Of a stretch of 64,000 nt of DNA, positions 45,190 to 50,688 are shown piece after piece. The stretch's first letter is position 1; each line of letters starts with the position of its first letter. The notes below the pieces were generated by a model. The model was given only the letters and a program-made list of their open reading frames with translations, was not told where the DNA came from and did not search any database. The DNA is taken from positions 760,282 to 824,281 of the forward strand of contig NZ_CP028105.1 of the NCBI RefSeq assembly GCF_003019675.1. The letters run 5' to 3'. This DNA is from Fusobacterium ulcerans (GTDB lineage Bacteria > Fusobacteriota > Fusobacteriia > Fusobacteriales > Fusobacteriaceae). The translations under genes and the position numbers were made by a program.

Positions 45190-46626
45190 TTATACTTTCT
45201 CTGCTTCCAGTGCTTCATCATCATAAACATCTTTTATATCCTCAGCTTTTTTAGCCAACTCAAACCAGAAGTTTACAACTTTATCTTCAGAAAAATATAC
45301 TCCAAATTTACTCTTATGATTTTCAAGTATCCCTCTTACAATAGACAGACCTAATCCATGCCCGTCTCTGTCTCTAACTTTATCTAATCTATAGAATGGT
45401 GTCCAGATACTGTCCAAATCCCCTTCTGTCAATCGATCTGTTTCATTACTTACAATTATTCTTTCCTTGTTTCCAAGATCTTCTGTACTGATAATTACAT
45501 CTCTTTCTCCAGAAGAATATTTAAGAGCATTTACCACAAGATTATCCAATACTCTTTCAATATATTTTTCATCACATAAAACAAAAATTTCCTTGCTTCC
45601 ATTATAAATTATTTTCTTGTATTTAGAAGAATATTTGTCTCTTATATCCTTTATCATAGGATAAAAATTAACTTCCTCTATATCCATTTTAAAATATCCT
45701 GATTCCATTTGTGATATAAGCAGAAGCTCTTTAACAAGAGAATCCATTTTCAAACTTTCTTCCATAATGACTTCACAATAGAAATTTTTATCCTCTTCAT
45801 TTGCAACATTTTCTACCAGTCCCTGAGCATATCCTTGTATTATTGATATAGGTGTTTTCAGTTCATGGCTGACACTTGCTATAAATTCTTTTCTTAATTT
45901 ATCCAATCTTTTCTCATTTTCAATGTCTATCATAAGCTTCTTATTGACTTTGTTTAGCTCGTCTATACTTTTTTCCAGTGTTTCTCCCATTCGGTTAATA
46001 GAATAACCTAGTTCTCCAATTTCATCCTTGCTGTCTTTTTCAAACTTCCTGTTGAAATCAAGTTCTGATATTTTCTGAGTTATCTCTTTTATTTCCAGTA
46101 TAGGATCAGTCATTTTTTTAGAAAATATAAAGGACATGGATGACCCTATTATCAGAGCCAGTACAATTATTAAAAGGTGATATCTTGTAGATATCTCTAG
46201 TCCTTCCTGAATAAAACTTAGAGGCGTTATTATCTCAATATACCTGTCACTTCTGTAAGGCATAAAAAGTATTAGGACTTTTCCTCTATAATCAAGAAGA
46301 GTTATTTCTTCAAAAACATATTCGTTACCTTTAAGTTTTTCTGCTATGCTGTCTATTTCACCTTTGGAAAGTATTGATTCTGTCTCCAGTCTGTAAAGTT
46401 CTTGATTTTTTTTTATAAGTATGGCAACATTTGAATGCATTTCAAGATTTTGAAAATCTATGACATATTTAGGATCGACAAGTATTTTTCCCAGTTCTAC
46501 AAGTTTTTCTTTCTTGTTTTTTATATAGAATTTTTCCAGATATATACTATTTGTTACTAATAATCCTAGAATTATCATAACTACTACACTGAACATCAGG
46601 AAAAATATCTTCCATCTTATCTTCAT
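45190..46626 (-). CDS. Sensor histidine kinase of the copper operon
   Basis: The 478-residue kinase has membrane helices near residues 7-27 and 150-172 around an extracytoplasmic sensor domain, then HAMP (KKMTDPILEIKEITQKISEL), HisKA with FIASVSHELKTPISIIQGYA and HATPase with GHGLGLSIVRGIL. It overlaps the response regulator by 4 bases. Being co-directional with copZ-copA-csoR suggests it senses copper or envelope damage by metal; the sensor domain itself shows no clear metal motif. It is the last gene of the operon. Confidence 0.88.
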   Translation of the reverse strand: MKIRWKIFFLMFSVVVMIILGLLVTNSIYLEKFYIKNKKEKLVELGKILVDPKYVIDFQNLEMHSNVAILIKKNQELYRLETESILSKGEIDSIAEKLKGNEYVFEEITLLDYRGKVLILFMPYRSDRYIEIITPLSFIQEGLEISTRYHLLIIVLALIIGSSMSFIFSKKMTDPILEIKEITQKISELDFNRKFEKDSKDEIGELGYSINRMGETLEKSIDELNKVNKKLMIDIENEKRLDKLRKEFIASVSHELKTPISIIQGYAQGLVENVANEEDKNFYCEVIMEESLKMDSLVKELLLISQMESGYFKMDIEEVNFYPMIKDIRDKYSSKYKKIIYNGSKEIFVLCDEKYIERVLDNLVVNALKYSSGERDVIISTEDLGNKERIIVSNETDRLTEGDLDSIWTPFYRLDKVRDRDGHGLGLSIVRGILENHKSKFGVYFSEDKVVNFWFELAKKAEDIKDVYDDEALEAEKV

Positions 46627-47288
46627 TTGTCTCCCTCGAATTTATATCCAAATCCTCTTACTGTCTGAATAAAATTATCTCCTATTTTCTTTCTCAATCT
46701 TTTTATATGTGTATCTACAGTTCTTGAATCACCAAAGTAATCCCATCCCCATACTGAGTTCAAAATCTTTTCTCTGGACAGAGCCAGTCCTTTGTTCTCT
46801 ATAAAGAAATATAAAAGGTCATATTCTTTAGGAGTTAGCTCCAGCACTACATCCCCTAATTTTACTTCTCTCTTAGAAGTATCAATAACAAGATCTCCAA
46901 ATTCTAAATATGTTTTATCTACTATTTTCCCATCTCTTCTCAGCAAGGCTTTTACTTTTGCTACTAACAATTTAGGATTGAAAGGCTTTATCATATATTC
47001 ATCAGTTTCAAGTTCAAATCCAAATAACTGATCACTTTCATCAGCTCTAGCTGTAAGCATGATAATAGGAACCTGAGATTCTTCTCTTATTTTTCTGCAT
47101 ACACTCCAACCATCTATTTTCGGCATCATTATATCCAGAATAACAATATCATATGTAGTCTGGAAAAAGAGTTCAAGTCCCTCTTCTCCGTCTCCAGCTT
47201 CATCTACACTATATCCTTCTCTCACAAGGTAATCCTTTATGAGCTTTCTTATTTTCCATTCATCATCTACTACGAGTATCTTTTTCAT
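46623..47288 (-). CDS. OmpR-family response regulator of the copper operon
   Basis: The 221-residue regulator has a receiver domain (MKKILVVDDEWKIRK, phospho-Asp in IVILDIMMPKIDGW, IKPFNPKLL) and a winged-helix domain ending RTVDTHIKRLRKKI and TVRGFGYKFEG. The receiver Lys region reads ELETDEYMIKPF where GADDY is usual, so the GAD is replaced by ETD. I use the ATG at 47288 because GGGGGG lies in front and the upstream TTG would overlap it. It follows the CsoR-like gene by 27 bases. Confidence 0.9.
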   Translation of the reverse strand: MKKILVVDDEWKIRKLIKDYLVREGYSVDEAGDGEEGLELFFQTTYDIVILDIMMPKIDGWSVCRKIREESQVPIIMLTARADESDQLFGFELETDEYMIKPFNPKLLVAKVKALLRRDGKIVDKTYLEFGDLVIDTSKREVKLGDVVLELTPKEYDLLYFFIENKGLALSREKILNSVWGWDYFGDSRTVDTHIKRLRKKIGDNFIQTVRGFGYKFEGDK

Positions 47289-47315
47289 AAAGCCCCCCAA
47301 TCAAAAATCTTTTCC

Positions 47316-47894
47316 TTACTTAATCATTTTATTCAAAGTGTATAAAAGTTCTGTGATGACTCTGTCTTCATTTCCTGATTTTATATCCCTTACTATACAA
47401 TTTTTTATATGTGATTCAAGTACTAATTTTGACACTCCATCAAGTTCTCCTTTTACTAGAGATATCTCATTTAATACTTCGTTGCAATGTTCTTCTTCTA
47501 CAAGCTCTTTTATCTTTCCTACCTGTATTTCTATCTTTTTTATCATTTCAGGCAGATCTTCCTTTATTTTTTTACTTGTTTTATCAATCATTTTATTTAG
47601 TGTCTGTACAAGTTCAGAGATTATTTCATCTTCAGCTCCTGCTTTTATATCATTGACTACACAATTTCTTATGTGAGATTCAAGTATTAATTTTGACACT
47701 CCATTTAAGGCAGATTTTACAGATGATATCTGATTAAGAACATCATCACATCCGACTTTATTACCAAGCATTTTTCCTATTCCTCTTATTTGTCCCTCTA
47801 TCCTGTTTATCCTCGCTTCTAATTTCCTTTTGAATGCTGGACATTCTTTGCTCATACATTCGTCAGATATGCAGGTTCTCTTTAGCTTCTCCAT
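47316..47894 (-). CDS. csoR: Tandem-fused CsoR-type copper repressor
   Basis: The 192-residue protein is two CsoR domains in one chain (normal CsoR is about 90-110 aa). Both halves keep the Cu(I) ligand set Cys-His-Cys: C49, H74, C78 and C137, H162, C166, in parallel ESHIRNC and ESHIKNC motifs. The first half keeps the basic helix with RINRIEGQIRGI used for DNA binding; in the second it is replaced by LPEMIKKIEIQVGKIKELV, so DNA contact is probably lost there. Extra Cys residues lie at 8, 13 and 18. It lies 15 bases after copA and probably represses its own operon through a G/C-tract palindrome at 50604. Confidence 0.9.
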   Translation of the reverse strand: MEKLKRTCISDECMSKECPAFKRKLEARINRIEGQIRGIGKMLGNKVGCDDVLNQISSVKSALNGVSKLILESHIRNCVVNDIKAGAEDEIISELVQTLNKMIDKTSKKIKEDLPEMIKKIEIQVGKIKELVEEEHCNEVLNEISLVKGELDGVSKLVLESHIKNCIVRDIKSGNEDRVITELLYTLNKMIK

Positions 47895-47909: not shown

Positions 47910-50381
47910 TTACTGCTTTTTAAAGTTTTTAAGCCTCAATGCATTAGTTACTACTGAAACAGAACTCATAGCCATTGCTCCTCCTGCTATCATAGGATTC
48001 AAAAGATGTCCTGTGAAAGGATAAAGCACTCCAGCAGCTATTGGTATTCCTAAAGTATTGTAAATGAAAGCCCAGAATAAATTTTGCTTTATATTTCTTA
48101 TAGTAGCATTGCTTAAATCCATTGCTGTAAGTACATCTTTTAGATTTCTCTTCATCAATACAATATCTGCACTTTCCATAGCAATATCAGTTCCGCCTCC
48201 TATAGCTATTCCTACATCAGCTTGTACCAAAGCTGGAGAGTCATTTATTCCATCTCCTACCATAGCTACATTATATCCTTCTTCCTGTAATTCTTTTACT
48301 TTCAAATATTTATCTTCTGGTGTTACTTCAGCAAATATCATATCTATTCCAACTTGTTTTCCTATTGCTTCAGCTGTTATCTTATTATCTCCAGTAATCA
48401 TCCCAATTTTATATCCTTTTTCTTTCAATTCTTTGATAGTGTCCACAGCTTCTTCTTTCATTACATCAGCAACTGCTATTATACCTAAGAATTTTCCATC
48501 TATAGCCATATACATTGGAGTTTTTCCTTGTGATGCCAGTTCATCCAATTCTTTTTTCATAGTTATTTCTATATTTTTAGCTTTCATCAGTTTGACATTT
48601 CCTATCAAAACTTCACTTTCTTCTATTTTACCATATACTCCCTGTCCAGTTATAGAAATAAAATCATTTACTTGTGGAAATATAAGTCCTCTATTTTTTG
48701 CCTCTTCTACAATAGCCTCTCCTAATGGGTGCTCTGAGTGTAATTCAAGAGCTCCAGCTATTTGTAAAGTATCATTTTCTTTGTACCCTTCCATAGTCAA
48801 AATATCTGTAACTTTTGGTTTTCCTTCTGTCAATGTTCCTGTTTTGTCAAAAACTACAGTATTTACTTTGTGAGCTTTTTCCAGAGCTTCTCCAGATTTT
48901 ATCAATATTCCCAATTCTGCTCCTCTTCCTGTTCCTACCATTATAGCTGTAGGAGTAGCAAGTCCTAATGAACATGGGCATGCAATTACCATTACAGAAA
49001 TAAAAATAGTAAGTGCAAAGATAGAAGGAGTATTATTTATTTCTACAATACCACGACTTCCTAGATAATACCAGATAATTCCTGCTGCTGTTGCTATAAT
49101 CATTACTATTGGAACAAAATAAGCTGATACCTTATCTGCTATTTTAGCAATAGGAGCTTTTGAACCTTGAGCATTTTCTACCAGTTTTATTATTTTAGAT
49201 ATCACAGTATCTTTACCAACTGCTGTTGCCTCTATTTTAAGACTTCCATTTTTGTTGATACTTGCACCATAGACTATATCTCCTGCTGCTTTATCTATTG
49301 GAATACTCTCTCCAGTAAGCATAGATTCATCTACTGTACTGTTTCCATCTATTACTTTTCCATCTACTGGGATACTTTCTCCAGGTTTTACTAAAAGAAC
49401 CTCGCCTTTTTCAACTTCTTCTATATCTACCTGTACTATCTCGCCATTTCTTACAAGGTTGGCTTTTTTGCTTTTTAAACTCATAAGTTTTTTTATAGCC
49501 TCTGAAGTTTTTCCTTTACTTACACCTTCCAGATATTTCCCTAAAAGTATAAGAGCAAGAATAACTACTGCTGATTCATAGTATAGAGAATGTACATAAT
49601 GATAATTCCCTTCTGCTATCTTAAAAGTTCCATAAATACTATAAAGCAAAGCTGATCCTGTTCCTGTAGCTATCAAAGAATCCATACTTGGACTTCTCAT
49701 AAATAATTGTTTAATTCCTACAGTATAGAATCTTCTTCCTATATATACCACTGGCAGAGCAAGTATAAACTGTATAATTGCAAAATTCAGTGGATTGATA
49801 TCAGGTGAAATAATAGAAGGAACTGGAAGTCCTACCATTGTTCCCATTGCTATGTAAAAAACAATAGCAGAAAAAACAATTGCTATTTTAAATTCTAAAA
49901 ACTCCCTTTTTAGATGTTCTTCCTTTTCTTTGTCCTTTAGGTTTTCAGAAGATTCCTCATGCTTTGTTCCAGTATATCCCATTTTTTTCATTACTTCAAG
50001 GATTTCTGAAAGTTTAATAACATCTGAATCATAAACAATTTTTCCTCTGCTGTTTGCTAAGTTTACTATTACTGATTTTACTCCATTAAGCTTTGAAACT
50101 TTTTTTTCTATTTTATTAACACAGACCTGACAGCTTATTCCGTCTATATCTAGCTCCACATCTTTCAAGTCTGATTCTTCTTCTATTTCATATCCTAATT
50201 TTTTTACAACTTCCATTATTGTCTCATCTTTCAATAGAGATTCATCATAATCCACTGAAAGTTTTTCTGTAGAAAGATTTACTACGGCTTCTTTCATTCC
50301 ATCTAATTTAGATAGTTTCTTTTCTATCTTATTGACACAAACTTGGCAGCTCACGCCGCCAAGCTGATAACTCTTTTTCAT
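47910..50381 (-). CDS. copA: Copper-exporting P1B-type ATPase
   Basis: The 823-residue pump has two N-terminal metal-binding domains, each with CQVC in GVSCQVCVNKIEKKL and GISCQVCVNKIEKKV. About eight membrane helices follow, with the CPC transport site in VIACPCSLGLATP, the phosphorylation motif VFDKTGTLTEG, the HP locus (SEHPLGEAI) and MVGDGINDSPAL. CPC with CxxC domains indicates Cu(I) export. Its start overlaps the copZ stop by one base (TAATG), so translation is coupled. Confidence 0.96.
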   Translation of the reverse strand: MKKSYQLGGVSCQVCVNKIEKKLSKLDGMKEAVVNLSTEKLSVDYDESLLKDETIMEVVKKLGYEIEEESDLKDVELDIDGISCQVCVNKIEKKVSKLNGVKSVIVNLANSRGKIVYDSDVIKLSEILEVMKKMGYTGTKHEESSENLKDKEKEEHLKREFLEFKIAIVFSAIVFYIAMGTMVGLPVPSIISPDINPLNFAIIQFILALPVVYIGRRFYTVGIKQLFMRSPSMDSLIATGTGSALLYSIYGTFKIAEGNYHYVHSLYYESAVVILALILLGKYLEGVSKGKTSEAIKKLMSLKSKKANLVRNGEIVQVDIEEVEKGEVLLVKPGESIPVDGKVIDGNSTVDESMLTGESIPIDKAAGDIVYGASINKNGSLKIEATAVGKDTVISKIIKLVENAQGSKAPIAKIADKVSAYFVPIVMIIATAAGIIWYYLGSRGIVEINNTPSIFALTIFISVMVIACPCSLGLATPTAIMVGTGRGAELGILIKSGEALEKAHKVNTVVFDKTGTLTEGKPKVTDILTMEGYKENDTLQIAGALELHSEHPLGEAIVEEAKNRGLIFPQVNDFISITGQGVYGKIEESEVLIGNVKLMKAKNIEITMKKELDELASQGKTPMYMAIDGKFLGIIAVADVMKEEAVDTIKELKEKGYKIGMITGDNKITAEAIGKQVGIDMIFAEVTPEDKYLKVKELQEEGYNVAMVGDGINDSPALVQADVGIAIGGGTDIAMESADIVLMKRNLKDVLTAMDLSNATIRNIKQNLFWAFIYNTLGIPIAAGVLYPFTGHLLNPMIAGGAMAMSSVSVVTNALRLKNFKKQ

Positions 50382-50578
50382 TATTCCTCAACCTCATATC
50401 CCGCATCATCCAGCGCTTCAACTATTTTTTTAAAATCATATCCCTCTGGGATATCAACAGATGCTTCTCCAATTTTTACATCTAACAATTCTACTCCATC
50501 TAATCCCTCTAAAGCTTCCTTTACATGTGCCACACATTTCTGACAACCCATTCCATCTATTTTTATTACTTTTTTCAT
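50381..50578 (-). CDS. copZ: Copper chaperone CopZ-like protein
   Basis: The 65-residue heavy-metal-associated domain has the GMGCQKC motif with Cu-binding Cys12 and Cys15, and a ferredoxin-like fold pattern. It hands Cu(I) to CopA and perhaps to the CsoR-like repressor. It is the first gene of the operon behind a promoter with a CsoR-type palindrome. Confidence 0.92.
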   Translation of the reverse strand: MKKVIKIDGMGCQKCVAHVKEALEGLDGVELLDVKIGEASVDIPEGYDFKKIVEALDDAGYEVEE

Positions 50579-50603
50579 AAATTATCCCTCCTGATTTTTC
50601 ATT

Positions 50604-50620
50604 ATAGGGTATACCCCTAT
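50604..50620. promoter_or_regulatory. CsoR-type operator in the copZ promoter
   Basis: ATAGGGTATACCCCTAT is a near-palindrome with G/C tracts around a TA-rich centre, the form of known CsoR operators. It sits just downstream of the -10 box, over the likely transcription start, ideal for repression. A similar half-like site, ATATACCCCTATAT, lies at 50675-50688. Confidence 0.72.
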
Positions 50621-50623
50621 TTC

Positions 50624-50652
50624 ATAGTAACTCAATTTTATATAAAAGTCAA
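50624..50652 (-). promoter_or_regulatory. copZ-copA operon promoter
   Basis: On the minus strand TTGACT (50647-50652) and TACTAT (50624-50629) are 17 bases apart. The operator at 50604-50620 lies immediately downstream, between promoter and copZ. Confidence 0.78.
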
Positions 50653-50674: not shown

Positions 50675-50688
50675 ATATACCCCTATAT
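50675..50688. promoter_or_regulatory. Second CsoR-like site upstream of copZ promoter
   Basis: ATATACCCCTATAT carries the same ATACCCCTAT core as the operator at 50604-50620, 71 bases further upstream. It may be a second binding site, for example for the second domain of the tandem repressor, or chance. Confidence 0.4.

Follow-up and report, generated by a model that had tools for sequence, protein, structure and literature searches.

Here, we describe a CsoR protein of Fusobacterium ulcerans in which two CsoR domains, D1 and D2, are joined in a single chain and in which the positions equivalent to the DNA-contact residues of S. lividans CsoR are constrained crosswise between the two domains. 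The gene lies in the 64,000-nucleotide stretch of contig NZ_CP028105.1 that was analyzed, referred to as the window (Table 1). A copper-type CsoR chain comprises about 90 to 120 amino acids and a single domain; with 192 amino acids and two domains, the tandem protein is therefore treated as a CsoR variant. To our knowledge, the CsoR proteins described so far are single-domain homo-oligomers. The sequence-only reading of this DNA likewise knew of no described tandem CsoR, and none was found in the literature searched, which had most subscription journals outside its scope; the protein is thus an undescribed variant within the known CsoR family. We consider it probable, if by no great measure, that this protein acts as a repressor of its own copper-export operon, that each chain would correspond to two CsoR subunits providing composite DNA-binding elements, and that Cu(I) would release it.

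Table 1. Features of the tandem csoR locus (positions in the window)
Feature	Position	Strand	Basis or remark
Tandem csoR gene, 192 aa, two PF02583 domains	47316..47894	-	Open ORF and Pfam
Domain D1, helices 19-44, 49-84, 88-103	47586..47840	-	AF2; CsoR 4uig match
Linker, residues 104-113	47556..47585	-	AF2
Domain D2, helices 114-133, 137-172, 176-191	47322..47555	-	AF2; CsoR 4uig match
RLXR-type DNA-binding motif of D1 (R28-I-N-R31)	47802..47813	-	Equivalent of R54/R57 of S. lividans CsoR (PMC3902906)
Degenerate motif of D2 (M117-I-K-K120)	47535..47546	-	First Arg in 0/12 D2
Q55, alpha2 Gln conserved in D1 (S. lividans Q81)	47730..47732	-	
E143, in place of Gln in D2	47466..47468	-	
K189-M-I-K192, alpha3 lysines of D2 (equivalent to S. 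lividans R129/R132)	47319..47330	-	Both Lys in 12/12
C49, putative Cu ligand of D1	47748..47750	-	Alignment
H74, putative Cu ligand of D1	47673..47675	-	Alignment
C78, putative Cu ligand of D1	47661..47663	-	Alignment
C137, putative Cu ligand of D2	47484..47486	-	Alignment
H162, putative Cu ligand of D2	47409..47411	-	Alignment
C166, putative Cu ligand of D2	47397..47399	-	Alignment; Ser in 1/12 species
copZ-like HMA protein (first operon gene)	50381..50578	-	
copA, copper P-type ATPase	47910..50381	-	TIGR01511 621.5 bits, cut-off 397
OmpR-type response regulator	46623..47300	-	
Sensor histidine kinase	45190..46626	-	
Operator-like palindrome AATAGGGGTATACCCTATA	50603..50621	-	Position and conservation, 12/12
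Promoter-like TTGAC/TACTAT, abutting the palindrome upstream	50624..50652	-	
Half-site TATAGGGGTATAT, 66 bp upstream of the operator	50675..50687	-	

PF02583 (CsoR/DUF156) matched the chain in two stretches with 132.5 bits (Pfam cut-off 22.8), and D2 run alone still scored 51.3 bits, above the same cut-off. In the AF2 model from which the helix and linker ranges were taken (pLDDT 81.4, pTM 0.76), the domains extend over about residues 19 to 103 and 114 to 191, and three helices are predicted in each, as in CsoR. D1 superposed on S. lividans CsoR 4uig with a Z score of 9.5 and an rmsd of 1.2 over 89 residues, and D2, modelled alone with AF2, with a Z score of 11.5 and an rmsd of 1.6 over 87 residues; by themselves these Z scores carry little weight, with unrelated helical proteins reaching 8.0 in the D1 list and 9.7 in the D2 list. 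We accept the three-helix CsoR fold for both domains because the PF02583 sequence match agrees with the superposition. Foldseek with the whole-chain model gave no match at E <= 0.001. Four-helix-bundle structures matched in the fold search span portions of D1 and D2, a result that does not settle how the two domains pack against each other.

The distribution of DNA-contact residues over the two domains is central to our reading. Mapping by HMMER alignment to 4adz and by the structural ranges places R54, R57, Q81, R129, and R132 of the S. lividans protein at D1 positions 28, 31, 55, 101, and 104 and at D2 positions 117, 120, 143, 189, and 192. The tandem domains were aligned with 27 single-domain DUF156 ORFs, leaving out L033, L038, L040, L041, L048, L049, and the rhodanese fusions L034-L037. 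The Arg equivalent to R54 and the Gln equivalent to Q81 are both invariant in the single-domain proteins (27/27) and in D1 (12/12) and both absent from D2 (0/12), and at the R57-equivalent position all 12 D1 domains carry Arg and all 12 D2 domains Lys. The alpha3 positions follow the opposite pattern. The R129-equivalent is Lys or Arg in 19/19 copper-type single-domain rows, those left after removal of eight non-copper-type rows (L031, L032, L039, L042-L046), and Lys in 12/12 D2 and 8/12 D1 domains. Lys at the R132-equivalent was found in all 17 single-domain rows reaching this position and in 12/12 D2 domains, and in none of the 12 D1 domains.

The same crosswise pattern is apparent when whole helices are compared. 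With an independent tree, that of CopA from these 12 genomes, as the reference, Fitch changes numbered 20 in D1 versus 39 in D2 for alpha1 (20 columns) and 22 versus 51 for alpha2 (36 columns), and the relation is reversed for alpha3, with 32 versus 15 (17 columns); mean column identity varies between the domains in the same manner. The contrast has a Fisher p of 2.5e-5 and a permutation p of 1.5e-4, values to be taken as descriptive because the alpha3 contrast had been noticed before testing. In the S. lividans study, mutation of R54, R57, or Q81 impaired operator binding most, and R132A and R129A reduced it about 4-fold and about 2-fold, respectively (PMC3902906). Judged by these positions, D1 and D2 look complementary in their DNA contacts rather than active and inactive. 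The sequence-only reading had described a protein with only one DNA-binding half: the loss of the basic alpha1 motif from the second half that it reported holds in 12/12 species, and D2 does lack the alpha1 and alpha2 contacts, but it keeps the alpha3 lysines more strictly than D1, so that the description applies in part.

The same source describes each face of the CsoR tetramer as two alpha1-alpha2-alpha3' elements, with a positive tract that carries RLXR motifs at both ends and alpha3 Arg132 in the center (PMC3902906). Because of this alpha1-alpha2-alpha3' arrangement, we read the crosswise residues as a composite element. One tandem chain would equal two CsoR subunits, and two chains would probably be the equivalent of a CsoR tetramer. 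With alpha3' provided by another subunit, D1 alpha1-alpha2, contributing the RLXR motif and the Gln, together with D2 alpha3, contributing the lysines, would form a complete DNA-binding element, and the converse pair of D2 alpha1-alpha2 and D1 alpha3, having lost its contacts, would be blank; a single composite element of the former kind is, we infer, the best reading. Two geometries can be envisaged. D1 might pair with D2 within the chain, which would result in mixed copper sites and one RLXR motif per face, or D1 might pair with D1' and D2 with D2', which would result in one complete and one blank face. A two-chain pseudo-tetramer with one complete DNA face, a blank opposite face, and two kinds of copper sites is a tentative proposal, to which we give perhaps one chance in three; if true, it would show directly which subunits' helices make one DNA-binding element.

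Some of the pattern may have other causes. Position 104 of D1 is located at the linker, and the loss of the C-terminal Lys there may thus be a consequence of the fusion itself; K105, which is invariant in D1, might substitute for it. Likewise, the conservation of D2 alpha3 may be structural, because alpha3 interactions also keep the CsoR tetramer together, as stated in the source cited above (PMC3902906). Hence, D2 could serve only for structure and copper sensing, as an internal dimerization partner that makes no DNA contact, with D1 alone binding DNA and D2 alpha3 retained for packing. The absence of the RLXR motif and the Gln from all 12 D2 domains fits this explanation, as does the net charge of the alpha1 stretch, which is -1 to +1 in D2 versus +2 to +4 in D1. 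However, the strictest positions of D2 alpha3 include the two DNA-side lysines, whose D1 equivalents are wholly or partly lost, and we judge a purely structural D2 rather unlikely, at about one chance in four.

Each domain carries a complete set of the copper ligands of CsoR, C49/H74/C78 in D1 and C137/H162/C166 in D2, in agreement with the two full Cys-His-Cys sites per chain noted from the sequence alone. The set is conserved in 12/12 D1 and 11/12 D2 domains of the tandem carriers; in one species (L012, from genome G005), the second Cys of D2 is replaced by Ser, with the equivalents of C137 and H162 kept. The Tyr preceding the first Cys, which from M. tuberculosis CsoR we take to be a second-shell residue, was found in 17/19 copper-type single-domain relatives versus 0/24 tandem domains, and D2 has His or Cys at this position, resulting in His-Cys or Cys-Cys before alpha2. 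The loss of this Tyr from all tandem domains may imply that the copper sites behave differently from those of usual CsoR proteins, and the sites of D1 and D2 may be unequal, considering the missing Tyr and the loss of C166 in one species. This raises the possibility that the tandem protein senses a signal other than Cu(I), such as another metal or a thiol, or that its sites are nonequivalent and only one of them signals. Beyond the Tyr missing from 24/24 domains and the altered residues before alpha2 of D2, the D2 site broken in 1/12 speaks in its favor; retention of Cys-His-Cys to the extent given above and the presence of CopA and an HMA protein in all 12 operons speak against it, and we regard it as improbable. 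As a separate observation, the N-terminal tail (residues 8 to 18) contains C8, C13, and C18, which are present in 5/6 species of the window's clade and do not occur as a set elsewhere. Two single-domain relatives (L017 and L026) have Cys-His-His instead of Cys-His-Cys.

The gene order copZ, copA, tandem csoR, response regulator, histidine kinase is the same in 12/12 carriers, that is, in 11 further regions and the window. The two-component pair downstream of the gene in every carrier could suggest that D2 is a protein interaction module coupling the repressor to the neighboring response regulator or histidine kinase. However, both also follow single-domain csoR genes: copA, csoR, response regulator, and histidine kinase are likewise found in G021 and G035, and csoR and the pair in G033. 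The pair thus also occurs without a D2 domain, and we consider such coupling very unlikely.

Immediately behind a TTGAC/TA..T promoter, abutting its -10 element, and over the expected copZ transcription start, a G-tract palindrome was found in 12/12 carriers. Its core is ATAGGGGTATACCCTAT in six species, ATAGGGGGGTACCCCTAT in five, and ATAGGGGGTATCCCCTAT in one, and in palindromes of the first type 11 bp separate the AT-rich arms, the spacing given for type 2 CsoR sites in PMC3902906. The 66-bp spacing of the upstream half-site is the same in 5/6 species of the window's clade, the sixth having a one-base variant. A like palindrome precedes copA in four of five copA-linked single-domain relatives (G018, G021, G014, and G066). 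Nine single-domain upstream regions yielded this palindrome in four and a direct repeat in G035; those of G026, G038, G034, and G033 contained no clear palindrome. Since the palindrome type is common to single-domain relatives, the fusion appears to have left the operator type unchanged. Scanning the window with up to two mismatches returned one site versus 0.77 expected by chance, and scanning genome G000 with up to three mismatches returned two sites versus three in the reversed control, with no excess; sites with zero or one mismatch occur once each in six genomes, located at the cop promoter. With no excess in the mismatch scans, the case for an operator rests on position and conservation, which make the palindrome over the copZ start an operator-like candidate site of the tandem CsoR. 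The apo protein would cover this palindrome until Cu(I) binds at the Cys-His-Cys sites, each of which requires ligands from a pair of domains; the protein would then come off the DNA, and copZ-copA-csoR could be transcribed. A further operator-like site with three mismatches is present at G000:C1:3469541-3469559, with matching sites in G001, G002, and G007 (L169-L172); no ORF of 80 aa was found there in L169, and no Rfam match in L169 or L171.

The fused ORF is free of stop codons in 12/12 genomes of the genus examined. PF02583 was present in 64/98 Fusobacteriota genomes, and the search for two DUF156 domains in one open frame returned none in the 86 other Fusobacteriota genomes. The best 80 contig matches of a wider genome search included a sole tandem, in F. 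mortiferum An814 (L063), which is one of the 12 carriers and gives a protein identical to that of L007. A single-domain csoR was found in L064, a MAG that NCBI names Fusobacterium; therefore, the fusion is absent from some organisms bearing this genus name. Among the matches listed for 149 Bacillota genomes with PF02583, no adjacent double match occurred, and inspection of nine long open frames revealed a credible second PF02583 domain in none of them. A tandem profile (A1) applied at E <= 1e-31, a cut that could overlook a distant tandem, matched 0/398 Bacillota and 2/198 Spirochaetota, both to the first domain alone. On plasmids, 304 records matched, 20 of them covering at least 80% of the query, and none of these 20 was a tandem: 16 were single-gene stretches counted twice and four were csoR and copZ pairs. 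Thus, the Bacillota, Spirochaetota, and plasmid samples lend no support to the tandem as a common architecture.

In a domain tree based on few columns (79 for 51 rows), D1 and D2 each form one clade (97/90 and 100/100), and their union is weak (79/20). Monophyly of each domain fits a single fusion preceding the diversification of the genus. The weak union is compatible with an origin of D2 by duplication of D1 as well as by capture of another CsoR. Two separate csoR genes adjoin on one strand in Paenibacillus tritici (L109, 4941-5291 and 5419-5751), and a side-by-side pair of this kind could give rise to a fusion. The genome of the tandem also encodes a second, single-domain DUF156 protein (G000:C1:132867-133103; L031 1519-1791), which belongs to another clade and has Pro before the first Cys. 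Where computable, omega was 0.006-0.13 for D2 and 0.01-0.18 for D1 (uncomputable in 5/13 and 1/13 pairs, respectively), indicating strong purifying selection on both domains. Chance, a false joining of two genes by a sequencing error (the caveat attached to the sequence-only reading) or during assembly, and a decaying duplicate or pseudogene can be ruled out for practical purposes, given the same fused ORF and the same five-gene operon in 12/12 genomes and omega far below 1 in both domains.

The tandem protein shares the PF02583 fold, the Cys-His-Cys ligands, the copA operon, and the G-tract promoter palindrome with the CsoR proteins of S. lividans (4adz/4uig), M. tuberculosis (2hh7), and G. 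thermodenitrificans (4m1p), and differs from described CsoR in having two domains per chain, divided DNA-contact residues, and no Tyr before the first Cys. Single-domain CsoR proteins of other Fusobacteriaceae (e.g., G021, G018, and G014) have a copA neighbor, sometimes the response regulator and histidine kinase, and a like operator type; unlike the tandem, they hold RLXR, Gln, Cys-His-Cys, and the alpha3 lysines all in one domain. Rhodanese-DUF156 fusions of about 201 to 207 aa from other Fusobacteriaceae genera (L034-L037) resemble the tandem in their DUF156 domain, but their partner domain is an N-terminal rhodanese (by Pfam on L035 and L036), not a second DUF156; their DUF156 domain is without the full Cys-His-Cys set. 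InrS, RcnR, FrmR, and CstR belong to the same fold family but are single-domain proteins with other effectors. InrS 5fmn was the top PDB sequence match of D2, and all tandem matches to the NCBIfam models for RcnR, FrmR, and RicR were below the cut-offs.

In an ordinary CsoR all subunits are identical, and alpha1 in one subunit and alpha3 in another are therefore not easily mutated separately. The tandem fusion breaks this symmetry, and evolution seems to have already divided the contacts. Point mutants of the tandem protein could reveal which subunits contact the DNA, and through which of their helices; the protein could also tell whether release needs every copper site to be filled. A 2026 review regards how CsoR holds DNA as still unclear, because the 2:1 model has no high-resolution structure behind it (PMC13101592). 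The tandem CsoR of Fusobacterium may thus offer a natural test of how DNA is gripped in this poorly understood repressor family.
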